Shown in pieces: positions 2,393 to 22,221 of a stretch of DNA of 22,221 nucleotides (within the stretch, counting starts at the first letter, position 1; each line of letters begins with the position of its first letter). The DNA comes from a virus: positions 1-22,221 of IMG/VR virus record IMGVR_UViG_3300010885_011298; one strand, 5' to 3'. The notes under the pieces were generated by a model. It was not told where the DNA came from. It saw nothing but the letters and a program-made list of their open reading frames with translations, and ran no database searches. The translations under genes were made by a program, and so were the position numbers.

Positions 2393-4123
2393 ATGGCATC
2401 TACTATAACTGCTCATATTGATTCTTTTATGCTCGGCATGAAAACGGCTATAGTAGAAGTATCTAAGAGAGAACTTAATACTTCAGTAGAATTAGATAAA
2501 ACTTTTAATAAAATTACTACAGATTTTAGAGATATTTATGATAGTTTAATGCCAAATATTCATGTAATAGATATTGATAATATATCTATTACAATATCTA
2601 ACGATATTGTAAATAATCCAGAAAAGTATTTTACTATAAAGGGAAGTAATTCCAGCAATATACAAGTATTAGCTAGTCAAGTACTAACAGATAGTGTACT
2701 AAAAACTCTTAGAAAAAATGTACGTGATGGATTAAAAACTTTTCATAGTAATTTACCAAAAGGTAATTTTAAAGGAAGTAACCCAATAGAGTATTTAAAT
2801 ACTTTAATGAGTCAGTTTATATTAAGTACTGAAAACTACTTAAATAATAATTCATATACTATGGAAGATAAAAGCACTAAAGTATTTGAACTTGGTTATA
2901 AATTTAGACAAAGTATATTTAGTATCTTTAATATTAGAAGTATACTGCAAATAGATGCAGGATCGTTTGGATTATCCAATCCTGATAAATATTTAGTATT
3001 TTTTGGAAAATCCTTTTCAGCTATGAAAACGAGTATAAATTCAAATATTAACGATTCAGTATTAGCTTCACTAAATAGTAGTATAAAAGTTTCACAAGTA
3101 TTTGATCCAAATAAAAGTGCAATTGGCGATATTATACACTTTGGTCACTCAGCAGTTAAATACAAAGAAGAAACTGAAGGCGGAGAATTAGTTACTCGTG
3201 AAGTTTTTCAAAGTCCCGGTTTCACGAAATTAGTATATAATACATTAAATATTAGTAAACCTACTGCCCAACAGTTAAAAGATTTGAACCCGAAGTATAT
3301 TAAAGAAACAGAACACTATAAGCACTCAATAGTTATTAATAAAGATTTAACTAAGGCGTATGGTGCTGTAGTACGTATAGGAATAAGTTTTACTCAAGAT
3401 CAATTACGCGATATTAATTTAGGTATGGCACCGCAAGAAGGATTATCTAGCGGCGGAAGAGGATCTAGTGATAAGTTAAAGCAGGATATATCAGTAAAGA
3501 ATATAGTAAGTATTCTAAAAAATCACCCTTTAGTAAAAGAAATAGCAACCGATACCTCATCTCCAAGTTTGGTAGATATGGCTAGAGATAAACTAGTAGC
3601 TGCATTTTCAGGTAAAACACAAAAACTTTTACCTAAATACGTATCTAAGCAAACAGGTACTACTATTGTAGAAAAACTTAAAAAAGTAAAAACTCCTTCC
3701 AAACCTATTAAGACTACTGCTAGTGTACCTAATACCGGTAGTATAAGTATAATCCCTAGTAAAACTAAGGGAAAGACGTCTCCTATAGTATCAGAGGTTA
3801 GTCTAACCTCCTTACAGTCACTTATTAATACCCATTTACAAAGTATGATTGCTGCTAATATGGGAGATGGTACTGAAAAAAGAATTCTAAATTATCGTAC
3901 TGGTAGATTTGCAGGTTCAGTAAATGTAGAATCTTTAAGTCAAAGTAGACAGGGTATGATTACGGCTTTTTATCGCTATATGAAAAATCCTTATCAAACA
4001 TTTGAACCAGGATATGCACAGGGAAATCCTAAAACAAGAGACCCTAAACTGCTAATATCGCAATCAATCAGAGAAATTGCTGCAACAAGGGTAGGTAATC
4101 AACTAAGGGCACAGGCACTATGA
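2393..4123 (+). CDS. Unrecognised virion/neck-region protein, 576 residues
   Basis: I do not recognise the family with certainty. The protein is polar and rich in Asn, Ser, Lys and Ile, with no signal peptide or membrane segment. There is a helical N-terminal half and a Lys/Thr/Ser/Pro-rich, probably disordered linker at about residues 425-475. A compact C-terminal block follows (roughly residues 480-576) containing NYRTGRFAGSV, ITAFYRYMKNPYQTFEPG and KTRDPKLLISQSIREIA, which looks like the conserved, folded part. There is no clear Shine-Dalgarno; it starts two bases after the connector stop codon and its own stop overlaps the next start (ATGA at 4120). Position between connector and tail-completion gene suggests a neck, stopper or minor head role. 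Arg codons are mostly AGA, unlike the capsid gene. Confidence 0.6.
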   Translation: MASTITAHIDSFMLGMKTAIVEVSKRELNTSVELDKTFNKITTDFRDIYDSLMPNIHVIDIDNISITISNDIVNNPEKYFTIKGSNSSNIQVLASQVLTDSVLKTLRKNVRDGLKTFHSNLPKGNFKGSNPIEYLNTLMSQFILSTENYLNNNSYTMEDKSTKVFELGYKFRQSIFSIFNIRSILQIDAGSFGLSNPDKYLVFFGKSFSAMKTSINSNINDSVLASLNSSIKVSQVFDPNKSAIGDIIHFGHSAVKYKEETEGGELVTREVFQSPGFTKLVYNTLNISKPTAQQLKDLNPKYIKETEHYKHSIVINKDLTKAYGAVVRIGISFTQDQLRDINLGMAPQEGLSSGGRGSSDKLKQDISVKNIVSILKNHPLVKEIATDTSSPSLVDMARDKLVAAFSGKTQKLLPKYVSKQTGTTIVEKLKKVKTPSKPIKTTASVPNTGSISIIPSKTKGKTSPIVSEVSLTSLQSLINTHLQSMIAANMGDGTEKRILNYRTGRFAGSVNVESLSQSRQGMITAFYRYMKNPYQTFEPGYAQGNPKTRDPKLLISQSIREIAATRVGNQLRAQAL

Positions 4124-7136: not shown

Positions 7137-10100
7137 ATGGCAGATGAAATCAATATAGGCATTAAGGCTAGCGATGGCGGTACTATAGACGCTTTAGTTA
7201 CTAAAGCAGAAAAGTTAGAAGCAATTTTTGCACGACTATCTGCAGCTCCAGCTGTAAGAGTACCTATTGCAGTAGCACAAGCTCAGGTAGAAGTAGCCGC
7301 CTCTCAGGGTGTGGCACCAAGAACGCCAACAAGACCAAGAGCAGTTGCTGCAGCTGCCGCTAGTGGGCCGAATAATACTGCTAGCAATACTAATCTTAGT
7401 CGTGCTGTAACAGGAAGTACTGGTGCAGGAGCAAGAGACTTTGCCTCAGAAGCACAAGGCTTGGGCGGGCTTGTTCACGTCTATGCAACTTTTGCAGCTA
7501 ATTTATATGCTGTAAGTGCAGCATTTGGTGCCCTATCCAAAGCCGCAGATACCACTAATATGCTTAAAGGCTTAGATCAACTAGGAGCACAAAGTGGAAG
7601 ATCACTTGGTTCCTTATCTAAACAATTAGTAGAAGCCACTGATGGTGCACTATCTTTACGAGATGCAATGAATGCTACTGCTTTAGGCACGTCGGCAGGA
7701 CTAAGCGCAGATCAAATGCTGAGAATTACTGATGTTGCCAAAAAGGCGTCTTTGGCACTTGGTAGAGATATGGTCGACTCCATGGATCGTCTAACAAAAG
7801 GTGTTGTTAAAATACAACCAGAATTATTAGATGAATTGGGTATTATGACCCGAGTAATTCCTGCACAAGAAGCCTATGCTAAACAAATAGGTAAAAGTGT
7901 AGCTAGTTTGTCTACTTTTGAAAAACAACAGGCATGGGCTAATGCCGTATTAGCTGAAGGCGAGAAAAAATTTAGTGCAATTAAAATAGATACCAATCCA
8001 TATACTCAACTATCTTCTAGTTTAGCTAATTTAGCTCAGTCTTTTTTATCTATAGTTAATACTCCTGTTTCAGGAGTAATTTCTGTACTTACACATAATA
8101 CCTTATTATTAGGATTAGCTGTAGCTGCTGTTGGAAAAGCTCTACTAAGTATGGCTCTTCCTGAGTTGATGAAACAAAGATTTAATTATACCGAAACCAT
8201 TAAGAAGATGAAAGATGCAACAGAGTTTGAAAGACAAGCATCTAATGCTATGTTAGAAAATTTAAGAGCAGAAATTGGTCAACGCGATGCCTTACACGGT
8301 GCTGCTGCTAGAGAAGTATACATTAAAAAGAAAAAATCTTTGGGTGAGTTATCAAACCTAGAACAGACTGCCGCAAGTTTTAATACTGGTATAATTGGTA
8401 AAAAGACTGCAGGTTTATTAAGTATAGATACTTTTAGACTTAGCAATGATGAAATGGCTAGTATTAAAGAACGATCTAACTTTCTACTAAAAACTACAGA
8501 TGCAGCTAATCAAGCCGAAGGTAAAAGATTATCTGACCATTTAGACACAATGCATAAGTTTCGTACAGAAGCTGATCAGGTAGAGCAAGCTGCCACAGAT
8601 CAACATATGGCAAAAGACGTAAAAAATAATGAACTAGTAAATACTTTACAAAAGAAAACTGCTGAGTCTAATAAAAAATATGCTTTAGAAAATATTAAAA
8701 ATATTGCCGCAGAAACAGCTGCTAGAGATGGACTACTAGCAGGTATACGTAAAAGTAATCAGTTAATTGGTGAAGCAAGAAAAGCTCCAATAACTGTTAA
8801 AACAGGTATTACTCCTCTTGGAGCAGAAATAACTGAAATAGTACCTAAATTAAATTTTATGGATGGTGCTGCCCTAAGAGTAGGGAGTGCTATAGGTATG
8901 ATAGGTAATGCTGCAAAGGATGGATTTAGTACCCTACTAGGGTGGGCTAGTAAACTTGGCGAAATAGGCATGATTATAGCTGCGGCTGATATAGTATGGG
9001 AAATATTTTTCAACCTATTTAGTGGAAATAAAGAGGAATTAGAAAAATTTAGTAAATCCTTAGATAGTCTTTCAGAGTCAAGTAAAACCGTACATAATAC
9101 TTTAGCAGTACTATCTGATAATGAGGATCCATTAAGTAGAATTAGTATATCTGCTATATCTGCAAAATCAAATGCATTTAATACTTTAGCTGAAACAATT
9201 GGCAAAGTTACAAAAGATGGTGAAAAAGCTGCAAGTAAAATGGTCTGGGTTGATCAAATTGCAGATAGTTTTAAGAAACTTTATGGTGGTGATATAGCTA
9301 GCCAAATGGAGACCTCTTTAAGTACAGCTATTGAGGATAGTTTTAATTTATTAAAAGATAATACAGAGTTACAAGATAAATTTGTTAAAAATATAGGAAC
9401 TGTACTAAAAATACCTAATTTAGATATTCATAATATTGATTGGAGTAAATTAAGTCCTACTCAATTAACAGAAGCATTTAAACTTTTACCCAAAGCTATT
9501 CAGGCTAGTAATACCGAATTTGGTAATTTTAATTCATCTATAAAAGATTATACTGCAGCAGCAGATGCTGCAGTAAAAGCTACACAAGATTTTAATTTAG
9601 CAAATCAGAACAATGATCCCATGTATAAAATGGGAAGCTCTTTGCTAACCTTATCATCAAGTTTAGTATCTGTTACTGATAATGCGGATAAAGCTACTAT
9701 AACTTTTATAAATTTTATAAAAGATACTTCAAAATTAGCATTACTAACTCCTGATGTAGCCTTAGGTTTAGTAGGTATGAAAAATGGATTCTTAGAGAAT
9801 GCATCTGCTATACAGGAAAATATTAATAAAGTTAATGATTTAAGACAGGCATTAGTAGAAGCTGAAAAACAAGAAAATAGTTGGCAAAATAAATTAAAAG
9901 AATTCGTAGTTAATGCCTTAGAGTCTAATGTTAGAGGCCCTTTCAGCGGTCCCCCACCTGAAGCTCCTAAAAAATCAGATACAATTAGACAAGATTTAGT
10001 AGCATCAGAAAAACTTAAAGATGAAAATGAAAGTAAAAGAAGAGACCTAGAAACAGAAGCAGCTAAAAAGTTATCAGAAATTCAATTTGATACTTTTGTA

Positions 10101-13100
10101 AGAGGTAGTGAATACATAAAAGTTGCTCTTGGTAATGTAGGTCTTAAAATTGGTGTTGATATTGATAAAGCTTTAACATCCGGGTTAACCGGAGCTAGAG
10201 CCGCGCTTGCAAATGTTAGTATAGCTGAAAGAGAAAGAGATATAACGCAAGCACAGATAGATGCAACATATAATAATACTATCGCTCAAAATGCTTTAAC
10301 TTTAGCTATACAAGAGAATAATGCTTTACAAACTCTAGCTAATGAAGAGAAGAAAACAGGCAGAGATAGAGATACTGATAAAATAAAAAGATTGCAAATA
10401 GATGTAGAAGCCTATGGTAGAGCCCGAGAGATTATTAGAGGCCCAGCTTCTGGTATTGCTGATGCAACTAGAGCGTCACTTATTACAGGTAAAGCTAGAG
10501 GTATTGATTCTAATGATCCTGAAATACAGCTTCAACGAAAAGTTGGTTCAGCTTTACTACCTTCTAGTGATGCCGCAAATCAAGCTTCTATAAAAACCTT
10601 AGAAGCTAGAGGAAAAGTACTAGTAGAACAAGCCAAAGCAGCGGGAAGCCTAGCACAAGAATCTTATTTACGAAGTGTAGAAAATAGCCAGTTTGATAGT
10701 GCCTCTTTAAAATTACAGGCAGATAAGTTAAATATAGCTAATAGTATACTTGATACTCAAAGCGAAGCATTAGTAAAACAAAAACAAACTAATGAGGTAA
10801 TATTAATAGAACAAAAAGGTTATCAAGATCAAGAAGCTATAAAAGGTAAAATAGTTTCCCTTGAAGCACAACTAAAATTAACTGGTGATGAAAAATTAAA
10901 GCAGCAAATAAGTGAAGAAATAGCTTTAGAAAAAACAAGATTAATTAGATCCGGAACTTTAACTAATTCGGAAAAAGAAAATAAGTTATTACAAAATGGA
11001 GTTGATCTAATGAATATTAGATTGGCTAAATTAAAACAAGAACAAGAATATAGAAAACTAGTTTTAGATCAACAACAACTTCAAGCTACTAATATTTTAG
11101 AAGCAGAACAAGCCAGAGTCAATGGATATGTTCAACTAAATAGTTTATCCGAGCATGCTAAAGCATCTATTTCAGCTCAGCAGGCTAATGCAAGTGCTTT
11201 ATTACAGTTTAATCAAGATAGTGAAAAAGTACAACGAAATATAAATGATCTTAAAGATCAGTATAATGAAAAAGTAAAAGCTCTTCCCCCAGTACCTAAT
11301 GCTAAAGATCTAGCCGAAGGTCGTACAGATCCTTATGCAGAACAAAGACGTCAAAATCTTGAAAATGAAACAGCTGCTATAAAACCCCTACAAAAACAAC
11401 TAGATATTATTTCTGATACTTACTATGGAAAGAAACAGGTAAGAGATATAACTAGTGAAACCGCTTTACAAATTGCTAAAGAAAATGACGCCCTAAAACA
11501 GCAGTCAGATTACATGCAAAGTTTAGTTAGCACTACTGAAAATTTGGCAGCTTTGTTTGGTAATGTAGGTGATGCAATAGGTAAAAGTTTACAAGCAATA
11601 CAATCCGTTGCAGATGCAGAAGATAATTACTCTAGAAATAAAATTAAGTATAACCAACTAATTGAAGCAGGTAGTAGAAAGGGTGCTAACGCAGAAGCTC
11701 TAACAGCTGCTATAGACGCTACCAAACAGCTGGAAAAACTTGAAAAAAATAGAGTACAAGAAAAACTAAGAGATGATGCAAAAGTATTCAATGAATCTAA
11801 GAAAATGTTTGAAGAAGGAAGTATTGCCTACAAAGTTCTAAATGGGCTAGAAAAGAAAAATCATTTGGAAGCTACATATAATGCAGGTAAAGAAGCAGCT
11901 ATTAAAATGGGTTTCATTAAAGAAGAACAAATAGCCGAAGCCGAAGCTTCATTAAAATCTTTAGCATTAAAAGCCTCTAATGTACTAGAAGGTATAGGTA
12001 TTGATATACCAGGTATTTATGCTAGTTTTATGGATGTTCTTGGACCTTTTGGACCCCCAGCCGCAGCAGCCGCAATAGGTATGTTCTTGGGAGGTGCAGG
12101 AAGTGGTGCAGGGTCTGCACCATTTAGTTACGATGACTATAAGAAACAACAAAATTATTCAACTGGTACTGGAGGGGTTGCAGGTGATTCATCAGCAGCG
12201 AATACTGGTTTAACAAAAGCTCTAGATATATTATCAGCAGCAGCTACACCTCAGTTACAACTTACATCTTTGATGGCTGTATATTTAAAATCTATTGATT
12301 CTCATATACAAAATATTGGCATAGGTATTCAAGGAGCCAATGGTGGTTCCATGATGAATGCAAATGGCGTATATCAAGGACAACTAGGTGGACCTAGTGG
12401 TATAGCTGGATCAGTAGCAGGGGCTGTATTAGGTAGTGTTGGATTTACTGCAGGAGTTGGGGCTGTTACAACCACACTTATAAATGGTGCTGTTACATTG
12501 GGGGCTAGTTTAGCAGGGCTTAGTGGCATAGCAGGTGAAGTCGGTGTTCAACTTGCAACATCTGCTACTACTGCAGCTATAGGAGCTAGTTCATTAGCAA
12601 CTACTTTTGCAGAACTTGGATCAGTTGTACCAGGAATTGGAACAGCTATTGGTGCTGTTGTAGGTTTATTATTAGGGTCAATGCCAGCAGTTCAAAATTG
12701 GATAGCCGGTAGTAGTATTGCATTTCAGTCAGTAGCTGGATTCGGAGCCGAAATAAAAGATCAAACCTTGGGTATGGCTGCATCTAATCTACAAGTAGAA
12801 AAATTTACTGATGTGTTAGTACATACAGTCAATGAACCTAACCTTTGGCAAAGATTAACAGGAACAGGAGAAACTGCAAGTGATTCAGTAGCCCACGTAC
12901 TATCTCCCGCAGATGAAAGATTTGTCAAAGCCCTACAAGCAGTTTATGGTAATATACAAAAATCTTTAACTGCGGCATCCTCACTATTAGATGTAAGTAC
13001 AACAGGACTTAGTGACTTTAAAATTAGTCTTACAGATATAGATTTGTCTAGCGGAACAGATGCTGAAAAGCTAACAAGGCTACAAGGTGCAATTGGTGAT

Positions 13101-16100
13101 GCAGCAGACTCCTTTGCTAGAAAATTAATGCCTAGTATTGATAACTATACACAAGCAGGGGAAACCGCTTATACAGCTTATCTAAGACTAGCAAGTGCAC
13201 AGGAAAAAGCAACCTATATAACAAATCAATTAGGTATAGCAACGGTTAAATTTAGTCAGATAGAAGATACTAGATTAGTTAGTGCTGCGGCAATAACTAG
13301 AGAAAGTATTGTTCAAGCAGAAACATGGGTAAAAGGTATAGGTTCAGTAACTTATAGATTTATTGATCTTGCAGGTAAGGTAACACTGTTTACATACCCT
13401 ATAGATACATATGCAAAAAGTTTATCTAATATTGCAACTATCATTAAAGACTTACCATTAACTGCCACAGAAGATGAAATTGCTACCTATTATGTTACAT
13501 TAAAAAATATAGAGGCAACTTTTACCTCTATGGGATATAGTGTTAAAACATTAAACGAAAATTTAATAAATGGGGCCGGTGGATTATCTGCCTTAAGTAC
13601 TTCTTTAGCAACTTTTGAAGATAAGTTCCTTAGTAGTTCCGAAAAATTAACAATAGAACAAGCAAAAGTAGATATTCAGTTTAAGAGACTAGGGTTAACT
13701 ACTCCTAAAACTGCTCAAGAATTTACAAATTTGGTTAAAGGTTTAATGGCTTCTGGAGAAAGTTCCGGAGACTTATTAGGTAAAGTATTAAATTTAAGTG
13801 ATGGAATGAGTAATTTATTCGATTTAATGAATGCTGGTACTAAAACTCTATCAGATTTAGACTTAGCTTTAGCTAAACTAGATCAGCAAATTAAAATCTA
13901 TGACTTACTAAATAATTCTGAAGCTGCCTTAGCTCTTACTCGTCAAAAAGAATTAGATGCTATGGATGAAAGACTACGTCCAACACAACTATATATCTAT
14001 GCCTTAGAAGATGAAGCAAAAATTAGAGATACCCTAAGTAATAAGTTAAAAACAAATATTACTAACCTAAAAGGGTTCATTACAAGCTTAAATTCAGCAA
14101 AAGATCAACTGCTACTAGGTGCGCAAAGTACTCTCACCCCAGGAGAGAAATATGCGGAAGCCAAAGCACAATTAGATGCCTTAAAACAAGCGATTGCAAC
14201 CACAGGTACTGATGATGCCTCTATAGCAGCAAGAGATGCAGCCTTATCTAAACTACCCGCAGCAACAACAAGTTTCCTAGATGCCTCTAAGACTCTTTAT
14301 GCTAGTTCAGGGCAGTATAGTCAAGATTTTGCTAATGCTACTGATTACCTAAAGACTACAGTAGATAAGTTAACTTTGGCAAAAACTGATGCTGAAGTGC
14401 AATTAGCTGCAGTTGAAACAGGTAATACTTCCCTAGCTAAAATTGACCTTAATACTAAATCTACTGCAGAACTAATGAAAATGTTAACCGATGCTAGCGC
14501 TAAAACTGTAACAGCTGCAGCAGTTGGTGATGTACATGCAGATACTGGTAAAATGTACACTAGTAATGAAAAAATTGTAAATGATTTATATAAATCACTA
14601 TTTAATAGAGTTGCTGAAAAAGAAGGACTTGATTATTGGACTAATAAATTAGATACAAAAGCCTTAACAGCAGATACCCTAAAATCAACTTTACAAACCT
14701 ATTTACCTATTCATCATCTAACTGCTGACTCAACAGCAAGTTATATAAAAGATGCAATACGTGATGGTATGACTAAGGATGCCGCAGGTACATTTAATGA
14801 AATAAACTCTCGTGGTTATAGTTCACAACAAGTAGCAGACTTCCTATCAATTACTAAAGATGAAGTATTAGCTTGGGCTAAAGCAAATAATTTAGGTTCA
14901 TTTGCGGCAGATACAGCTAAAATTATTAATACATCCCTTACTGCACTTACAGATACTAGTACAGCAGTTGTAACTGCTAGTACCGCAGTTACTACAGCTG
15001 CTAGTACAGCTACTACTACACTAACTACAGCAGGAACAGCAGTTATTACAGCAGGAACAGCAGTTACTACAGTAGGAACAGCAGTTACTACAGCAGGAAC
15101 AGCTCTTACAGATACTTTAACTACTGCAGTTAATACTGGTTTAGTAAATACAAGTACTATAGCTACAGGTAGTACAACTGGTACAAGTGGTACAACAAGT
15201 AGTATTGTTGATAGTATTGTAACTACTATTGGAACCGGCATCACTACAGTAATAGATACTATTACTAGTGCTGTTACAAGTACAACAACAGGTACTGGTA
15301 TTGCCGATAGTATTATTAGTACAATTGGTGGAGGTATTAATACAGTACTAAGTACTATTACTAGTACTGTTACAGGTACAACAACAGGTACTGGTATTGT
15401 TGATACTATTGTTAGTACAATTGGTGGAGGTATTAATACAGTACTAAGTACAATTACTAGTGCTGTTACTACTGCAACATCTATTATTACTGATACAGGT
15501 ACTACTGCAGCAGCTGCTATAACGGATACAAGTGCTACTGCAGCAGTTGTTATCACTGATACAGGTACTACTGCAGCAGCTGTTATCACTGATACAGGTA
15601 CTACTGCGGTAACTGCTATTACTGATACAAGTACTACTGCAACAACTGCTATTACTGATACAAGTAGTACAAGTACTAAAGGTGGACCTTATGAGTATAT
15701 CGGTGCTGTTCGCTCAGCTTTAGATAGTGTTGATAGAGGTATAGGAGATGGAACTGGTGGTTATGATGCATTTGGCGGCAGTGCAGGAGACGATAGAGCC
15801 TGCCCCGCCCCTTGGATTAATATTACACTAGCTGACGGTTCCTTAATTCAGGCAGGCGACGTTAAACCAGGTATGCAAGTTTATACTTGTCATGAAATTA
15901 CTGGTGAATGGGGTAACTTTACAGTAACGCACGTATCTATGAGTGAGGATACACGTTGGAAAGTAGTCTTCCAAGAAGGTACAGAGTTTGTAGGAACATT
16001 TGACCATAGAATTTTAACAGACTATGGTTGGGTTCAAATAGATAAACTACAGGTTGGAGATAAAGTAGTTACACCAAGTGGATTTATTACGGTAAAATCA

Positions 16101-16571
16101 ACTAATTTCCATGATTTTGGAGCAGTTGTTAAGATTACAGTAGAAGATGCCCACACTTACTTAACCGAAGGATTTGTATCACACAATATAAAACCTAATG
16201 CATTTGATGGAGCAAAAGCTTTTAACTGGGACGAGTTACAAATACAACCATTTGCTGCAGGCGGTATAGCCTCTGGAATGAGTTTAGTAGGAGAGCAAGG
16301 CCCAGAATTAGCAGATTTCCAAAGACCCGCAAGAATTTATTCTAATGGTGATACTAAAGACTTATTTAATAATAAGGAGTTAGTTGCAGAAATCAAAGCC
16401 CTACGTGAGGAGGTAGCAAAACTCCGTGAAGATCAGCACGAACAAACAGGACACTTAATCGCCTCAACATACGACGCAAACAGCAAAGCCTCTACAAGAG
16501 TTGCAGCAGCAACAGAGAATGCTACGATCAACGCATCATGGAAAGATCGCTCAGCAGTAAAAATAGCCTAA
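7137..16571 (+). CDS. Giant tail tape measure protein with C-terminal DUF4214-like and Hint domains
   Basis: 3144 residues, the longest gene here. The N terminus (INIGIKASDGGTIDALVTKA, then ADTTNMLKGLDQLGAQSG and a conserved helical block to about residue 285) is typical of tape measure proteins. Long helical/coiled-coil segments follow, with four hydrophobic stretches at about residues 308-345, 602-632, 1616-1662 and 1751-1858, the last very Gly/Ala-rich. Near the C terminus are a DUF4214-like module (about 2473-2595), Thr/Ala repeats (about 2602-2848), a Hint domain (2889-3017), the common tape measure motif GMSLVGEQGPELADF and a final coiled coil. The protein sets tail length and probably helps DNA cross the envelope. 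Lambda scaling (about 0.15 nm per residue) gives roughly 370-470 nm of tail depending on which parts count. Confidence 0.93.
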   Translation: MADEINIGIKASDGGTIDALVTKAEKLEAIFARLSAAPAVRVPIAVAQAQVEVAASQGVAPRTPTRPRAVAAAAASGPNNTASNTNLSRAVTGSTGAGARDFASEAQGLGGLVHVYATFAANLYAVSAAFGALSKAADTTNMLKGLDQLGAQSGRSLGSLSKQLVEATDGALSLRDAMNATALGTSAGLSADQMLRITDVAKKASLALGRDMVDSMDRLTKGVVKIQPELLDELGIMTRVIPAQEAYAKQIGKSVASLSTFEKQQAWANAVLAEGEKKFSAIKIDTNPYTQLSSSLANLAQSFLSIVNTPVSGVISVLTHNTLLLGLAVAAVGKALLSMALPELMKQRFNYTETIKKMKDATEFERQASNAMLENLRAEIGQRDALHGAAAREVYIKKKKSLGELSNLEQTAASFNTGIIGKKTAGLLSIDTFRLSNDEMASIKERSNFLLKTTDAANQAEGKRLSDHLDTMHKFRTEADQVEQAATDQHMAKDVKNNELVNTLQKKTAESNKKYALENIKNIAAETAARDGLLAGIRKSNQLIGEARKAPITVKTGITPLGAEITEIVPKLNFMDGAALRVGSAIGMIGNAAKDGFSTLLGWASKLGEIGMIIAAADIVWEIFFNLFSGNKEELEKFSKSLDSLSESSKTVHNTLAVLSDNEDPLSRISISAISAKSNAFNTLAETIGKVTKDGEKAASKMVWVDQIADSFKKLYGGDIASQMETSLSTAIEDSFNLLKDNTELQDKFVKNIGTVLKIPNLDIHNIDWSKLSPTQLTEAFKLLPKAIQASNTEFGNFNSSIKDYTAAADAAVKATQDFNLANQNNDPMYKMGSSLLTLSSSLVSVTDNADKATITFINFIKDTSKLALLTPDVALGLVGMKNGFLENASAIQENINKVNDLRQALVEAEKQENSWQNKLKEFVVNALESNVRGPFSGPPPEAPKKSDTIRQDLVASEKLKDENESKRRDLETEAAKKLSEIQFDTFVRGSEYIKVALGNVGLKIGVDIDKALTSGLTGARAALANVSIAERERDITQAQIDATYNNTIAQNALTLAIQENNALQTLANEEKKTGRDRDTDKIKRLQIDVEAYGRAREIIRGPASGIADATRASLITGKARGIDSNDPEIQLQRKVGSALLPSSDAANQASIKTLEARGKVLVEQAKAAGSLAQESYLRSVENSQFDSASLKLQADKLNIANSILDTQSEALVKQKQTNEVILIEQKGYQDQEAIKGKIVSLEAQLKLTGDEKLKQQISEEIALEKTRLIRSGTLTNSEKENKLLQNGVDLMNIRLAKLKQEQEYRKLVLDQQQLQATNILEAEQARVNGYVQLNSLSEHAKASISAQQANASALLQFNQDSEKVQRNINDLKDQYNEKVKALPPVPNAKDLAEGRTDPYAEQRRQNLENETAAIKPLQKQLDIISDTYYGKKQVRDITSETALQIAKENDALKQQSDYMQSLVSTTENLAALFGNVGDAIGKSLQAIQSVADAEDNYSRNKIKYNQLIEAGSRKGANAEALTAAIDATKQLEKLEKNRVQEKLRDDAKVFNESKKMFEEGSIAYKVLNGLEKKNHLEATYNAGKEAAIKMGFIKEEQIAEAEASLKSLALKASNVLEGIGIDIPGIYASFMDVLGPFGPPAAAAAIGMFLGGAGSGAGSAPFSYDDYKKQQNYSTGTGGVAGDSSAANTGLTKALDILSAAATPQLQLTSLMAVYLKSIDSHIQNIGIGIQGANGGSMMNANGVYQGQLGGPSGIAGSVAGAVLGSVGFTAGVGAVTTTLINGAVTLGASLAGLSGIAGEVGVQLATSATTAAIGASSLATTFAELGSVVPGIGTAIGAVVGLLLGSMPAVQNWIAGSSIAFQSVAGFGAEIKDQTLGMAASNLQVEKFTDVLVHTVNEPNLWQRLTGTGETASDSVAHVLSPADERFVKALQAVYGNIQKSLTAASSLLDVSTTGLSDFKISLTDIDLSSGTDAEKLTRLQGAIGDAADSFARKLMPSIDNYTQAGETAYTAYLRLASAQEKATYITNQLGIATVKFSQIEDTRLVSAAAITRESIVQAETWVKGIGSVTYRFIDLAGKVTLFTYPIDTYAKSLSNIATIIKDLPLTATEDEIATYYVTLKNIEATFTSMGYSVKTLNENLINGAGGLSALSTSLATFEDKFLSSSEKLTIEQAKVDIQFKRLGLTTPKTAQEFTNLVKGLMASGESSGDLLGKVLNLSDGMSNLFDLMNAGTKTLSDLDLALAKLDQQIKIYDLLNNSEAALALTRQKELDAMDERLRPTQLYIYALEDEAKIRDTLSNKLKTNITNLKGFITSLNSAKDQLLLGAQSTLTPGEKYAEAKAQLDALKQAIATTGTDDASIAARDAALSKLPAATTSFLDASKTLYASSGQYSQDFANATDYLKTTVDKLTLAKTDAEVQLAAVETGNTSLAKIDLNTKSTAELMKMLTDASAKTVTAAAVGDVHADTGKMYTSNEKIVNDLYKSLFNRVAEKEGLDYWTNKLDTKALTADTLKSTLQTYLPIHHLTADSTASYIKDAIRDGMTKDAAGTFNEINSRGYSSQQVADFLSITKDEVLAWAKANNLGSFAADTAKIINTSLTALTDTSTAVVTASTAVTTAASTATTTLTTAGTAVITAGTAVTTVGTAVTTAGTALTDTLTTAVNTGLVNTSTIATGSTTGTSGTTSSIVDSIVTTIGTGITTVIDTITSAVTSTTTGTGIADSIISTIGGGINTVLSTITSTVTGTTTGTGIVDTIVSTIGGGINTVLSTITSAVTTATSIITDTGTTAAAAITDTSATAAVVITDTGTTAAAVITDTGTTAVTAITDTSTTATTAITDTSSTSTKGGPYEYIGAVRSALDSVDRGIGDGTGGYDAFGGSAGDDRACPAPWINITLADGSLIQAGDVKPGMQVYTCHEITGEWGNFTVTHVSMSEDTRWKVVFQEGTEFVGTFDHRILTDYGWVQIDKLQVGDKVVTPSGFITVKSTNFHDFGAVVKITVEDAHTYLTEGFVSHNIKPNAFDGAKAFNWDELQIQPFAAGGIASGMSLVGEQGPELADFQRPARIYSNGDTKDLFNNKELVAEIKALREEVAKLREDQHEQTGHLIASTYDANSKASTRVAAATENATINASWKDRSAVKIA
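14553..14925 (+). other. DUF4214-like module inside the tape measure protein
   Basis: At residue 2473 onward the protein reads MYTSNEKIVNDLYKSLFNR, then GLDYWTNKL: the LY...F.R....GLDYW...L signature of DUF4214. It is followed by a helical segment with DAIRDGMTKDAAGTFNEIN, GYSSQQVADFL and EVLAWAKANNLG, a pattern often seen beside such modules in tape measure C termini. The biochemical role of DUF4214 is unknown. Confidence 0.7.
15027..15110 (+). repeat. 21-nt tandem repeat, four copies, in the tape measure gene
   Basis: Units start at 15027, 15048, 15069 and 15090; each encodes a 7-residue variant of TAGTAVT. The array is in frame and forms part of a Thr/Ala-rich low-complexity segment that begins near 14940. 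Confidence 0.85.
15190..15471 (+). repeat. 96-nt (32-residue) tandem repeat, two close copies plus one degenerate, in the tape measure gene
   Basis: The copies at 15280-15375 and 15376-15471 begin GTACAACAACAGGTACTGG and share most bases, including GGTGGAGGTATTAATACAG. A more diverged copy of about 90 nt starts at 15190. Each encodes a TTTGTGI...IISTIGGGINTVLSTIT-like unit. The period is a multiple of three, so copy number could change without breaking the frame. Confidence 0.85.
15486..15683 (+). repeat. 33-nt (11-residue) tandem repeat, six copies, in the tape measure gene
   Basis: Units start at 15486, 15519, 15552, 15585, 15618 and 15651. Each encodes an ITDTGTTAAAV-like 11-residue unit; the last degrades into ITDTSSTSTKG. 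The array ends about 120 nt before the Hint domain and may serve as a flexible or extended linker. Confidence 0.88.
15801..16187 (+). other. Hint (intein / BIL-type) autoprocessing domain in the tape measure protein
   Basis: 129 residues, 2889-3017 of the protein. It starts with Cys2889 (CPAPWINITLADGSLIQAGD, then VKPGMQVYT; block A). It has GTFDHRILT with T2954 and H2957 (the TxxH of block B), GWVQIDKLQVGDKVV, and ends with VKITVEDAHTYL then TEGFVSHN, with penultimate His3016 and terminal Asn3017 (blocks F and G). These are the catalytic residues for N-S acyl shift and Asn cyclisation. Residue +1 is Ile3018, not Cys/Ser/Thr, so normal splicing by trans-esterification is unlikely and cleavage at one or both ends is expected. 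There is no space for a homing endonuclease. Confidence 0.85.
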
Positions 16572-16673: not shown

Positions 16674-18767
16674 ATGGCATATACTCAATATTCACAAGCT
16701 TGGCTGGAAGACCCAACCTCTATTTTTGGTATATTGGTTGAAGTCACAGTTTATGATGTGGTAGCTGCAGCTGAGAAAACGCTGTACTTATCCAACATTG
16801 GTTTTATAACTACGGATGCCTCCGTAAGTTACTCTCCTATAATTGCTGGCGGTATCAATTTTACTGAAACTTTACCCGTTGATGGAGCACCGACAATGTC
16901 ATTTGGTGACATTGAATTAGATAACTTAAATGGTGAATTAGATTCTTGGTTAGATAGTACAAAGTATATCTGGGTAAATAGATATATACAAGCGTATATA
17001 GGCGACCCATTTTGGCAGTGTGCTAATTTATCCGATGTTCACAGTAAGTTTCAGAAAATATTTGATGGTGTTATTGCAGACATTGATTCAAAGGCTAGAG
17101 ATAAAGTAAATATTAAAGTCAGAGATAAATTAAATAGACTTAATGTTCCTATTACCTCTAATAAAATTGGCACTTATGGTACTTGGTCTGCTGGTCAGAC
17201 TAATCAGGATACTATAAAGCCTTTAATATTTGGCGAAGTATTTAATATTAGCCCTATTTTAATTAGCCCTGCAAAAGCTTCTAGTTTAATAGCTACAAGT
17301 ATTTCGGGTACGTTTACCTGCTCATCTACTAACTTGGCCGTTGGACAATTAGTAAAAATTACTGGAACTATTACTGATACTACTTTATACGGAGATATTA
17401 CTGTAGCCGTGGGCGGAGCATTTACCCTAGCAAGTGCTTCCTCGACCCTACTACAAGTAGGACAAAGAGTTACAATTAGTGGTTCACCTTATGGCGTAAC
17501 TATAACTGGGTATTCAAATCCTACTACCTACTATATTATAAGTACTAATGGATCAACTACTTTTACCCTATCTGCTACCCTAGGCGGTTCAGCAATTACA
17601 ACTACTGCAGGAGTCTTATCCGCAGCTACAGTTAAAGCCCTAGGCGCTACAATTTCAGGATACACTAGTCCAACAAATTATTACATAACCGCCACTAATA
17701 GTTCAACTACTTTTACCCTGTCTACTAGTCTAGGCGGTAGTGCCGTAGTAACAACAATAGGTGCACTTAGTGGTGTAACAGTATCAAGTGATGCAACCTT
17801 TGGAAGACCTGAGTACTTACTAAATGATGGCAATACTGAGAGTTTAATAGAGTTACGAGATAACGGTGCTCCAATCTATAATAGCACACTTACTAGTGGG
17901 GCTGTACCTGACTTAACAAATGGAAAAGTAGTACTCAATAAACCACTAGCAGGAGCCCTAACTGCAAGCGTTCAAGGAATAAAGAACTCTATTAACTTAA
18001 GTACAGGTGATTTAGTATCTGGCACTTATAGTAATAATATTGCTAACTTAGTTGCCTTAATTGTTACCCAGTACGGTGTTGATAAATTATCCGCCTCTGA
18101 ACTAGACCTAACAAATTTAAGTGCATTTGCCACGGCCAATACTCAACCAGTAGGCATTATTGTCTCAGACTCAGCAACAGTTATCTCTGTATGTCAGGAG
18201 ATTGCAAATAGTATAGGTGCACAACTATTTATGACTCGTACTGGTAAATTGCAGATTTTACGTATTGGATCCCCTACCTCGGATAGTACTGTAACTATTG
18301 CAGATACTGATATCCTATTTCAGAGTTTAAATATTAATACTAGAACTGAGGTTGTTCCTACTACTAAAATAGGATACTGTAAAAATTGGACAGTACAAAA
18401 TAATTTAGTAACTGCTATATTTCCAGAACATAAAGCTTATTTTGCAGCAGACTATATAACTAAATCTGCCTTAGATAGCACAATTAAAGCAACATATAAA
18501 TTAAGTGCAGATGCTGTACAAAAGGATACTTTATTATTAACTTCTACTGATGCGAATGCAGAAGCGGCTAGACTTAATAATTACTATAAAGTACCAAGAA
18601 CAATATATTCTTTTGTAGGCACTGCTAAACTACTGTCCTTAAAACTAGGGCAGCAAGTAACACTAGTAAACTCTAGATTTGGTTTAACCTCTGGAGTAAC
18701 TGGACAAGTAGTCTCCTTAACACCTAACTGGTTGGAGGCTACTATTAACGTAGAGGTAATAGTTTAA
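16674..18767 (+). CDS. Tail tip / baseplate-hub-like structural protein
   Basis: 697 residues from ATG 16674. An in-frame ATG at 16668 overlaps the AAGGA ribosome site itself and so cannot use it. The N-terminal third (NIGFITTDASVSYSPIIAGG, MSFGDIELDNLNGELDSWLD, KIFDGVIADIDSKARDKVNI) resembles tail proteins that begin with a distal-tail or hub-like beta domain. A Thr/Ser/Gly-rich insertion follows (about residues 195-365) with two FCCH-like repeats of about 50 residues. The C-terminal part (IANSIGAQLFMTRTGKLQIL, VEVIV at the end) is hub-like. Position after the tape measure and before a fibre gene supports a tail tip role. Its stop codon overlaps the next start (TAATG), so the two are coupled. 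Confidence 0.65.
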   Translation: MAYTQYSQAWLEDPTSIFGILVEVTVYDVVAAAEKTLYLSNIGFITTDASVSYSPIIAGGINFTETLPVDGAPTMSFGDIELDNLNGELDSWLDSTKYIWVNRYIQAYIGDPFWQCANLSDVHSKFQKIFDGVIADIDSKARDKVNIKVRDKLNRLNVPITSNKIGTYGTWSAGQTNQDTIKPLIFGEVFNISPILISPAKASSLIATSISGTFTCSSTNLAVGQLVKITGTITDTTLYGDITVAVGGAFTLASASSTLLQVGQRVTISGSPYGVTITGYSNPTTYYIISTNGSTTFTLSATLGGSAITTTAGVLSAATVKALGATISGYTSPTNYYITATNSSTTFTLSTSLGGSAVVTTIGALSGVTVSSDATFGRPEYLLNDGNTESLIELRDNGAPIYNSTLTSGAVPDLTNGKVVLNKPLAGALTASVQGIKNSINLSTGDLVSGTYSNNIANLVALIVTQYGVDKLSASELDLTNLSAFATANTQPVGIIVSDSATVISVCQEIANSIGAQLFMTRTGKLQILRIGSPTSDSTVTIADTDILFQSLNINTRTEVVPTTKIGYCKNWTVQNNLVTAIFPEHKAYFAADYITKSALDSTIKATYKLSADAVQKDTLLLTSTDANAEAARLNNYYKVPRTIYSFVGTAKLLSLKLGQQVTLVNSRFGLTSGVTGQVVSLTPNWLEATINVEVIV
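17473..17772 (+). repeat. 150-nt (50-residue) tandem duplication in the tail tip gene
   Basis: Segments offset by exactly 150 nt encode YSNPTTYYIISTNGSTTFTL with SATLGGSAITTTAG, and YTSPTNYYITATNSSTTFTL with STSLGGSAVVTTIG. The DNA shares TCAACTACTTTTACCCT at 17553 and 17703. The pattern (Y..YYI...TT.F.LS...GG.A) resembles the FCCH-like beta repeats found in many phage tail proteins. Exact unit edges are approximate. Confidence 0.75.
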
Positions 18768-21700
18768 TGGCTACAATTGTTAATGATATTGATAGCACCC
18801 TACAAGGGGCTAGTGCCAGATTTATTGACCCCAGCGCAGATATTACTGCAACTCAGAACTATTTCCTTAAAGGTAATAATTCTGCAGATATAACTCCCTC
18901 TAACATAAGCCTTAATTTAGGATATAGTGGGTATACTGCACCTACATATGTATGGGAATATGCGGTTAATAATGCAGCAACTACTTGGATTAATTTAAAT
19001 AATACAAGTAATTCACTGGGTATTACGAATACAGATTTTAAAAATGCTGTAGGTACTGGTACGTCAATACAGTATAGATGCACAATTAGTCAAACTAATT
19101 GGCCTACAAAAATTGTCTACTATACTATTAACTATAATAAAACCACAAACAGCAGCCCAGTAGTCTCCCTAACTAGAGATAGTATAGTACTACCTACTAG
19201 TTCTGCTGATGTAGTAACATATACCTCCTCAGGAACTGATATTCGTGTGAGTATCAACGGAGTATATATTCCTTATGGAACTGGAGCTAATACATTTGAT
19301 GTTTCTGTTACAAGTAGTAACATAACAGCAGGATCTGCAACAACTGCAACAACTAGTGTAACTAATGATACTAGAAGATTTGGTGATCTATCTGGTATGA
19401 CTGCTGGAAGTACTACTATTGGTACAGTAACCTACACTATTATAGCTAGAGATGTTGATAGTGTAGCCACTACATTTGTAAAAATACAAACAATTACAAA
19501 AGCTGGCGTTGGCGCAGCTGGAACAAGCGGAAAAACTGTTTCCTTAACAACAGGTAATCAAGCATTTGCCTATACTGATGGCGGAATTACGCCCTCACCT
19601 TCTACCTCCCTACTAACTGCTACTGCACAAAATCTTAGTGGTACTGGATATTACGAGTTTTTAAAGTGGACAGGTAGTTCATGGACTACTCAACAAACTA
19701 GTACTACTAGTACATATACCTATACCCCACAGGCAGCTTACAGCTCAATGCCTGAACAAATACGTGTAGATGTACGTGATGGTAGCTCCATAGGTACAGT
19801 TATTGCTAGTGATACCCTATCCATGATGGGTATCAAACCAGGTAAAGACTCTATTACTGGATTCTTATCAAATGAATCTGCAGGAGTATCAACTGCTAAT
19901 GACGGTACCGGAGCAGACTACACTAATGTTGGCGGAACCTTCTATGTATATGACGGCTTAACAAATAAAACAGGTGATGCAAGTGTAACCTATAGTGTAG
20001 TCTCATTTAGCGGAGTTACTGTAAGTATTGCTAGTACCGGTGTATATACCGTAAGCAATTTAACTTCAGATACTGCAAGTGCTACTTTAAGAGCTGTCTA
20101 TGGCTCAATTACTATTGATAAAGTATATAATATATCTAGATCTAAAACAGGTGCTAGTTCAGTAACCGTTATCTATAGTAATGATAGCTTAACTGTACCA
20201 GTAAGTGCTATTAGTGGTATTGCTACTTGGACAGGCTCAGGTGGCGTTTTACAAGTATATGATGGAGCTACTGCCTTAACATTAGCTAGTACTTCACAGT
20301 CCAGTAGTTATCCTAGTACAGCGGGACAATTCATATTAGATATTAATAAGCGTAGTGGTGATACCCTAACTGAACCTACATATAGTGGTACAACTTCAGT
20401 TACCATCTCTGACTGGTCAGGAACAATTACTCAAAGTAGTACATATAGAATAACTGCTTATGTAAAAACATTAGCAGGTGTAAACTTAGCAGTGTCCAGA
20501 GATGTAACTATTACCTATGTAAAAAATGGTATAGATGGTACAAATGCTACTGCTTATTGGTTAACAGTTAGTGCTGCAGCTATACAAAAGAATTCAAGTG
20601 GTACATATAATCCTACTACGCTAGTACTAAATGCGTACTCTGCTACAGGTACTGGAGCACCTCAAGCCTATGCTGGGTACTTTAAAGTATATGAGGGTGC
20701 CTCACTACTATATGCTACTGTTGGGTCAAATGAGTCCACATATACACATACACCTACTGCAGGTATAAGTAGTGTAAAAATAGAACTGTATCAAGCAGGC
20801 GGAACAACTGTACTACTAGATAGTCAAATAATTCCAGTAGTAACTGATGGTAGCAATGGACTTAATGCTCCACTAGTTAGTATAACAGCCACTTCGCAAG
20901 TATTTGTACAAGCAAAAGATAATTCAGTTAGTCCATCTACAAGTACACTAACTGCAACTACTGTTAATATAACCAGCCCAACATATAATTGGTATTTATC
21001 TACAGATAATGGCGTAACTTTTGGCTCATCACTAGCTAGTACTAGTACTTTAAATGTAAATAGTTTTACTACTGCACCTAAAGTATATAAGTGTACAGTT
21101 ACCGCAACAGGAGTATCAGTATTTGATCAAATAACTGTACTTTCTGTAAAAGATGGTACTGATAGCTTAAATGCACTCCTAACAAATGAAAATCAAACTT
21201 TAAGTTGTAACAGTAGCGGAACTATTGCTCCAGCAGGACAACTACCAGTAACTAGTACTATGATAGTTGCTAAGGGTACTACAATTCTTAGTTCCGGGGT
21301 AACTTTTAGTAAAGTGTCCGAAACAGGGATGACAAGTACCATAGATGCTTCTAGTGGAGTTATTAGTGTAACCGCTGTTTCTTCTAATTCTGCTACTGCT
21401 ACTTATAGAGCAACTATAGGTAGCAGTTCAATAGATAAAGTTTTAAGTGTTAATAAATCAATTGATGGTACTACTAGTACTACTGTTACTTATACTAACG
21501 ATAGTTTAACTGTGCCACTAACTACTGCCGGAGTAGCTACTTGGGCTGGCAGTGGTGGGCAGTTACAGGTATATGAAGGTACTACTCTACTAACTTTAAG
21601 TTCTACTACTCAGAGTGTTACTACCCCAGGAACTAATGGACAGTATGTTTTAGATATAACTGCTATTAGTGGCGATACTCTAACTGAACCTACACTATCT

Positions 21701-22221
21701 GGAACAACAACAGTTACTTTAAGTGCTTGGAGTGGTACATTAACTCAAGCTACTGTATATAGAATAACAGCCTATATAAAAACATCAGTAGGTACTAATA
21801 TAGTAATATCTAGAGATGTTAGTATTAGCCCTAGTAAGGCAGGTGCTGACGCCACGGCTTATTGGTTAACAGTTAGTGCTGCAGCTATACAAAAGAATTC
21901 AAGTGGTACATATAATCCTACTACGCTAGTACTAAATGCGTACTCTGCTACAGGTACTGGGGCACCTCAAGCCTATGCTGGTAGATTTAAAGTATACGAG
22001 GGTGCTTCTCTACTCTATGCTACTGTTGGATCAAATGAGTCCACATATACACATACACCTACTGCAGGTATAAGTAGTGTAAAAGTAGAACTATATCAAG
22101 CAGGCGGATTTACTGTACTACTAGATAGTCAAATAATTCCAGTAGTAACTGATGGTAACAATGGACTTAATGCTCCACTAGTTAGTATAACAGCCACTTC
22201 GCAAGTATTTGTACAAGCAAA
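18767..22221 (+). CDS. Very long Ig-like-repeat tail fibre / tip protein (3' partial)
   Basis: The frame from ATG 18767 (TAATG overlap with the previous stop; GAGGT at 18753-18757, 9-nt spacer) is open to the window edge: over 1150 residues with no stop, so the gene is longer still. Composition is strongly Thr/Ser/Ala/Val/Tyr with few charges, the pattern of beta-sandwich repeats. Domains are separated by short linkers such as KNGIDGTNAT and KDGTDSLNA, as in phage fibres and central tip proteins. Repeated elements include NDSLTVP...ATWTGSGG.LQVY, DTLTEPTYSGTTSVT and AYWLTVSAAAIQKNSSGTYN. No enzyme domain is visible. As the last tail gene seen, it is a likely host-recognition component, but the receptor-binding end lies outside the window. 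Confidence 0.82.
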   Translation, partial: MATIVNDIDSTLQGASARFIDPSADITATQNYFLKGNNSADITPSNISLNLGYSGYTAPTYVWEYAVNNAATTWINLNNTSNSLGITNTDFKNAVGTGTSIQYRCTISQTNWPTKIVYYTINYNKTTNSSPVVSLTRDSIVLPTSSADVVTYTSSGTDIRVSINGVYIPYGTGANTFDVSVTSSNITAGSATTATTSVTNDTRRFGDLSGMTAGSTTIGTVTYTIIARDVDSVATTFVKIQTITKAGVGAAGTSGKTVSLTTGNQAFAYTDGGITPSPSTSLLTATAQNLSGTGYYEFLKWTGSSWTTQQTSTTSTYTYTPQAAYSSMPEQIRVDVRDGSSIGTVIASDTLSMMGIKPGKDSITGFLSNESAGVSTANDGTGADYTNVGGTFYVYDGLTNKTGDASVTYSVVSFSGVTVSIASTGVYTVSNLTSDTASATLRAVYGSITIDKVYNISRSKTGASSVTVIYSNDSLTVPVSAISGIATWTGSGGVLQVYDGATALTLASTSQSSSYPSTAGQFILDINKRSGDTLTEPTYSGTTSVTISDWSGTITQSSTYRITAYVKTLAGVNLAVSRDVTITYVKNGIDGTNATAYWLTVSAAAIQKNSSGTYNPTTLVLNAYSATGTGAPQAYAGYFKVYEGASLLYATVGSNESTYTHTPTAGISSVKIELYQAGGTTVLLDSQIIPVVTDGSNGLNAPLVSITATSQVFVQAKDNSVSPSTSTLTATTVNITSPTYNWYLSTDNGVTFGSSLASTSTLNVNSFTTAPKVYKCTVTATGVSVFDQITVLSVKDGTDSLNALLTNENQTLSCNSSGTIAPAGQLPVTSTMIVAKGTTILSSGVTFSKVSETGMTSTIDASSGVISVTAVSSNSATATYRATIGSSSIDKVLSVNKSIDGTTSTTVTYTNDSLTVPLTTAGVATWAGSGGQLQVYEGTTLLTLSSTTQSVTTPGTNGQYVLDITAISGDTLTEPTLSGTTTVTLSAWSGTLTQATVYRITAYIKTSVGTNIVISRDVSISPSKAGADATAYWLTVSAAAIQKNSSGTYNPTTLVLNAYSATGTGAPQAYAGRFKVYEGASLLYATVGSNESTYTHTPTAGISSVKVELYQAGGFTVLLDSQIIPVVTDGNNGLNAPLVSITATSQVFVQA
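20552..20916 (+). repeat. Fibre-gene repeat, copy 1 (period 1305 nt)
   Basis: This segment matches 21857-22221 with about 16 mismatches in 365 bases by hand count (about 96% identity), and the first roughly 105 bases are identical. It encodes an AYWLTVSAAAIQKNSSGTYN-type beta domain ending near SITATSQVFVQAK. The true repeat may extend further, because copy 2 is cut by the window edge. Confidence 0.92.
21857..22221 (+). repeat. Fibre-gene repeat, copy 2 (cut by window end)
   Basis: Second copy of the 20552-20916 segment, exactly 1305 nt (435 codons) downstream and in the same frame. The sequence upstream of each copy (about 20160-20540 and 21475-21840) is also related at protein level but much more diverged. 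The near-identity therefore begins sharply at about GCTTATTGGTTAACAG. Confidence 0.92.

Follow-up and report, generated by a model that had tools for sequence, protein, structure and literature searches.

In phage T5 the tape measure protein (TMP), pb2, is cut after R1127, near its C terminus, and the fragment remains in the tail tip, forming a trimer within the hub cup (PMC10038345); in DT57C the C-terminal TMP fragment is still present after ejection (PMC10713586). The lambda TMP, gpH, is processed proteolytically near its C terminus during tail assembly, as far as the account cited in PMC10038345 goes, with no Hint reported. A-type bacterial intein-like (BIL) domains are Hint domains that form a thioester at the N terminus and cyclise Asn at the C terminus, mostly cleaving, with some splicing by aminolysis (PMC4031507, PMC7765530). 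Their splicing can be of low yield, a Magnetospirillum BIL splicing only after its +1 Tyr was changed to Cys (PMC4031507), and reviews place them in bacterial proteins that are variable and not conserved (PMC7765530). Here we describe a Hint domain within the TMP of an uncultured tailed phage, on the 22-kb virus record IMGVR_UViG_3300010885_011298 (positions 1 to 22,221; this whole stretch of 22,221 nucleotides is called the window), which is probably a fragment of a phage genome. Our best explanation, to which taken whole we give an even chance, is that an A-type-BIL-like virion Hint cuts the TMP and frees a 127-residue plug for the tail tip, in a T5-like manner. The A-type-BIL-like chemistry itself is known; new is its setting, with a TMP as the host protein and within a virion-specific Hint subfamily.

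The TMP and the catalytic parts of its Hint are placed in the window thus:

7137..16571, plus strand: TMP open reading frame (ORF), 3144 aa in 3144 continuous codons; phrog_3779, with a pb2-like N terminus.
15801..16187, plus strand: Hint domain, residues 2889-3017, from hidden Markov model (HMM), profile and structure matches.
15801..15803, plus strand: Cys1 (C2889), the predicted N-terminal nucleophile, kept in 46/46 unique virion-type domains of the first survey of relatives.
15996..16007, plus strand: block B TxxH, here TFDH (2954-2957); His in 36/36 and Thr or Ser in 36/36 relatives, a set in which Cys and HN were required for cutting out the domain.
16146..16160, plus strand: block F DAHTY (3004-3008), in the relatives' alignments; since the pattern that gathered these relatives included DAHT, block F conservation is not independent.
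16182..16187, plus strand: block G His-Asn (H3016-N3017), from TIGR01443 and the relatives.

A first-pass annotation, made by a model from the letters of the window, had placed a complete Hint near the C terminus of a giant TMP, and this stands, as does every position it gave: C2889 is the codon at 15801, TFDH lies at 2954-2957, H3016-N3017 ends at 16187, and from I3018, the next residue, 127 residues are left. To the residues it named can be added the block F His in DAHTY, also present. We regard it as virtually certain that residues 2889-3017 are a Hint domain with a Hint fold. A leave-one-out HMM of phage relatives matches exactly this segment (E 8.5e-45), and because none of 200 shuffles (0/200) and none of the related TMP-locus ORFs (0/13) was matched, a chance match is ruled out; an annotation or frame artefact was also rejected, the ORF being continuous and the domain boundaries the same as those of the HMM. 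Structure prediction and a Hint profile search had been proposed as checks. In the former, AlphaFold returned a confident Hint fold (pLDDT 93.4, pTM 0.85), for which Foldseek gave inteins and BILs as the best matches, with TM scores of about 0.8-0.9, including 0.86 for the Clostridium thermocellum BIL 2lwy, which we take to be A-type and which also matches in sequence (E 1.5e-5). The Hint of Hedgehog was matched as well, at TM 0.82. The profile search was divided: TIGR01443 intein_Cterm scored 17.2 bits, above its cutoff of 15.6, but PT-HINT (PF07591) ended 1 bit below the Pfam gathering cutoff of 27.7, with 26.7 bits (E 7e-6) for the C-terminal piece and 21.1 bits for the whole protein. The host protein matches phrog_3779 over its N-terminal part in a profile search (E 2e-44), and its N-terminal region shares 40-42% identity with T5-like pb2 proteins; tail assembly chaperones lie upstream and tail-region genes downstream, and both profile and gene order are those of a T5 pb2-like TMP.

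Like an A-type BIL, the domain combines a Hint fold with Cys1, TxxH, a terminal HN, the absence of a Cys, Ser or Thr nucleophile at +1 (I3018) and a site in a hypervariable region. It differs in that BILs are described from variable bacterial proteins, whereas the window Hint is part of a phage TMP; its subfamily occurs in phage virion proteins, and the members mostly start CPxP and end SHN-[KIVA]. A B-type BIL, which lacks the intein C-terminal motif, was rejected, HN being present. Phage inteins of terminase, DNA polymerase and helicase (L010, H46-H68) share the Hint fold and block motifs, but they occupy conserved enzyme sites, carry a +1 nucleophile (Ser in the DNA polymerase intein L010) and splice; with Ile at +1, and a variable linker instead of a conserved site of an intact host protein, a true (class 1) intein was rejected. 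Pretoxin Hints have in common with the window the weak PT-HINT match and a Hint upstream of a C-terminal piece; this class was rejected on the score below the PF07591 cutoff and on the downstream piece, which is a conserved TMP tail and no toxin. Myxobacterial pretoxin-like Hints, moreover, start CFxAGT.

On these residues we consider the Hint very probably competent for catalysis, and from them we infer its activity, junctions, order and timing as follows. The domain sits between the TMP body and a conserved C-terminal module. After folding, Asn3017 would cyclise and the N3017-I3018 bond would be broken, and Cys2889 would form a thioester leading to hydrolysis at A2888-C2889. Ile at +1 offers no nucleophile, so no branched intermediate would be expected and cleavage should dominate, with splicing minor; that it does so in vivo we think probable. 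The 127-residue C-terminal piece would come away from the tape, probably while the tail is being assembled or afterwards, and, like pb2C of T5 after its proteolytic cleavage, would remain in the tail tip on ejection of the tape, as a helical plug of its own. Relatives that have no Hint would manage by proteases or without cleavage. Cleavage in place of splicing had also been the first-pass prediction, and the HN end, the missing +1 nucleophile and the conserved C-terminal module do lead one to expect it, although A-type BILs can also splice at low yield. Were the Hint to excise itself through BIL aminolysis and ligate A2888 with I3018, the mature TMP would be like those of its Hint-less relatives, in which body, linker and tail are continuous, and the full catalytic residue set for this is present. 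Against such splicing, Ile stands at +1 and nearly all relatives have K, I, V, A or Y there, the family being apparently fixed for non-nucleophiles, and relatives with the Hint at the extreme N or C terminus have nothing useful to join; we judge it quite unlikely. That the domain is catalytically dead in the TMP, a folded spacer and nothing more, would be in keeping with BILs that need a +1 mutation for splicing (PMC4031507), but every catalytic position examined is intact, and we hold this to be very unlikely.

Viral contigs were scanned twice with alignments, and 195 myxobacterial genomes once (matches in 24), for relatives of the Hint; together this gave more than 60 unique domains, nearly all of which retain Cys1 and HN and very few of which have a nucleophile at +1. 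Cys1, block B and HN lay outside the search pattern, and Cys1 and HN were surveyed with a profile run on all ORFs, including members outside its building set; in the first survey HN was found in 44/44 domains with complete ends. At +1 these carry K, I, V, A or Y, and the second viral scan agrees. For close pairs of Hints dN/dS is well below 1 (0.135 for L012 and L013), deep pairs being saturated and excluded. Where the host proteins can be identified they are virion proteins, and the remainder have no family match: the Hint occurs in J-type central tail fibre proteins (L060, L061), in T4-like proteins of phrog_358 adjoining baseplate wedge genes (L036, L043), in a virion structural protein (L038) and in a protein encoded near an internal-virion transglycosylase gene (L012). 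L012 and L013 are the closest kin of the window Hint (60-63% identity), and in them too the Hint precedes a C-terminal module; part of that module also turns up in proteins of cultured phages, among which no virion-type Hint was found. One relative carries a tandem pair of Hint domains in a single protein (L166:15-1604).

Around the Hint, the TMP has these further parts:

14478..16232, plus strand: hypervariable linker holding the Hint, residues 2448-3032, from TMP alignments.
14559..14663, plus strand: DUF4214, residues 2475-2509 (Pfam PF13946, 24.7 bits, cutoff 23.2).
14948..15670, plus strand: low-complexity stretch, rich in Thr, Ala and Ile, with tandem repeats of 21, 96 and 33 bp.
16188..16568, plus strand: C-terminal fragment I3018-A3144, 127 aa, the predicted release product; its final ~110 residues are also conserved among TMPs that lack a Hint.
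16287..16319, plus strand: VGEQGPELADF motif, in a predicted beta hairpin, from the alignment and AlphaFold of the fragment.
16374..16556, plus strand: predicted long C-terminal helix, residues ~3080-3140, a candidate coiled-coil plug, from AlphaFold.

In BLAST comparisons with related TMPs the body is conserved to about residue 2447 and the tail from 3033 on, and the linker between them measures 586 aa in the window as against 11-446 aa in closely related TMPs. In the window it holds DUF4214, the Thr/Ala/Ile-rich tandem-repeat stretch, a Gly/Asp-rich spacer and the Hint; related TMPs have other inserts in the same linker. By eye, DUF4214 also accompanies Hints elsewhere (L027-L031) or sits in the same TMP linker (L108). 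Both Hint junctions in the TMP are flanked by large pieces on either side, and the 109 aa downstream of the Hint share 51-62% identity with the C termini of Hint-less TMPs. The AlphaFold model of the 127-aa fragment, of mean pLDDT 68, consists of a beta hairpin that contains VGEQGPELADF and then a 60-residue helix (fragment positions 63-123); its structural matches include TMPs, although only the first match, a phage protein, is significant.

Lambda gpH had been offered as the precedent for such a cut, and the lambda TMP is indeed processed by proteolysis, but T5 pb2 is the closer case, its fragment being kept in the tail tip (PMC10038345). The window shares with T5 a related TMP N terminus and, should it be cut near the C terminus, the release of a helical piece from that end (PMC10038345, PMC10713586). 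The two differ in that T5 cleavage is proteolytic and the T5 fragment carries a muralytic domain, which is not seen in the window fragment. A 1973 paper by Zweig and Cummings reportedly, to go by its title, concerns host involvement in the T5 TMP cleavage. A membrane-insertion stretch beside the cut, as in T5, was not found, no 19-residue window near the Hint exceeding 1.6 on the Kyte-Doolittle scale. By analogy, the chance that tape and tip plug are separated as in T5 is in our view even or a little less. A Hint that cuts could also be a passenger in a tolerant hypervariable linker, its cut neutral and without a role in maturation. The range of linker lengths in relatives and their other inserts speak for this, as do the lack of a Hint in the other TMPs found and the presence of the closest kin (L012, L013) in an unrelated virion-region protein; yet the Hint directly precedes the C-terminal module, on the same side as the T5 cleavage, and the residues of the domain are under purifying selection in relatives. 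We regard a neutral passenger as unlikely.

Further Hints of this kind were sought in several ways. None of the related TMP loci has a Hint, and neither do 31 whole contigs of such phages, where the positive controls were recovered (9/9); the window is the only TMP of its group found with a Hint, in a comparison from which records very near the window may have been left out. A single-sequence scan of viral contigs for the Hint plus the tail found no relative. Two tblastn searches of 50,697 phage records with Hints close to that of the window gave hardly any match, and of two more distant Hints used against phage records one matched nothing and the other mostly terminase and helicase inteins, together with a weak Drexlerviridae match without HN. 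The open-access literature, subscription papers lying outside the search, yielded no report of a Hint in a TMP or of the present virion Hint family.

Several observations weigh against a Hint-driven release of a tip plug. The related TMPs found are all without a Hint, so the step is dispensable across the family. The myxobacterial relative L209 has Thr at +1, and the model of the fragment is that of a monomer, at medium confidence. In many relatives the Hint lies only 4-16 residues from the C terminus, too close to the end for the release of a C-terminal piece to make sense, and the shared function of the subfamily could be at Cys1 instead. From this arrangement we would argue that the Cys1 step matters in relatives with a C-terminal Hint. 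One form of it would be Hedgehog-like: a Cys1 thioester on the TMP body or on a J-type tail protein would be attacked by a lysine, lipid or peptide to give a covalent link to a tail-tip or host component. The many J-type or other tail proteins among the relatives that carry the Hint as their C-terminal domain favour this, N-terminal cleavage or transfer being the only consequential reaction there, as does the Foldseek match to the Hedgehog Hint; but an adduct-recognition region is not evident after the window Hint, relatives with an N-terminal Hint have lost Cys1 and kept HN, and the proposal is without a known acceptor. We find it improbable. In L011, L023 and myxobacterial genomes, pairs of neighbouring prophage genes, of about 440 and 720-960 aa, were seen in which each gene ends in a virion-type Hint plus 5-14 residues.

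In the relatives L190 (3971-4957), L193 (3971-5035) and L194 (3977-5029) the Hint is N-terminal, three residues after a Met, and Cys1 and the block B His are lost while HN is kept, a natural variant left with the C-terminal cleavage alone, which suggests that the C-terminal reaction was selected by itself. On this comparison of sequences, Asn cleavage appears to be under selection in its own right. Separately, the phage proteins L179, L180, L186-L189, L191 and L192 start with Met-Ala, followed by a complete Hint (MA/CS...HN/K), a layout in which only the C-terminal cut would free a useful protein.

The gene order of the window runs, 5' to 3', from a capsid protein fused to a protease-like N terminus through a head-tail adaptor, neck protein, tail terminator and major tail protein to two tail assembly chaperones, the TMP and two further large genes. 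The first of these ORFs (51-1736), open at the contig start, carries phrog_80 and phrog_267 together and is apparently a major capsid protein to which an N terminus resembling a head maturation protease is fused; the last (18767-22219), truncated where the contig ends, encodes a large, repetitive tail-region protein whose internal repeats are nearly identical.

C-terminal processing of TMPs is known in lambda and T5, and its trigger and purpose are poorly understood. If the preferred reading is true, the virus of the window cuts its tape measure by itself, a task that T5 and lambda leave to proteolysis, and a TMP with its own cleavage enzyme would make this step testable by two point mutants, without a protease hunt. 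More tentatively, a dedicated phage Hint subfamily may provide built-in processing modules for virion proteins, here replacing the proteolytic TMP cut of T5 and lambda, moving between unrelated tail proteins and dropping the N-terminal half of the catalytic apparatus wherever the C-terminal cut suffices. The recurrence of this virion Hint family suggests a general, little-noticed route of phage tail-protein processing.
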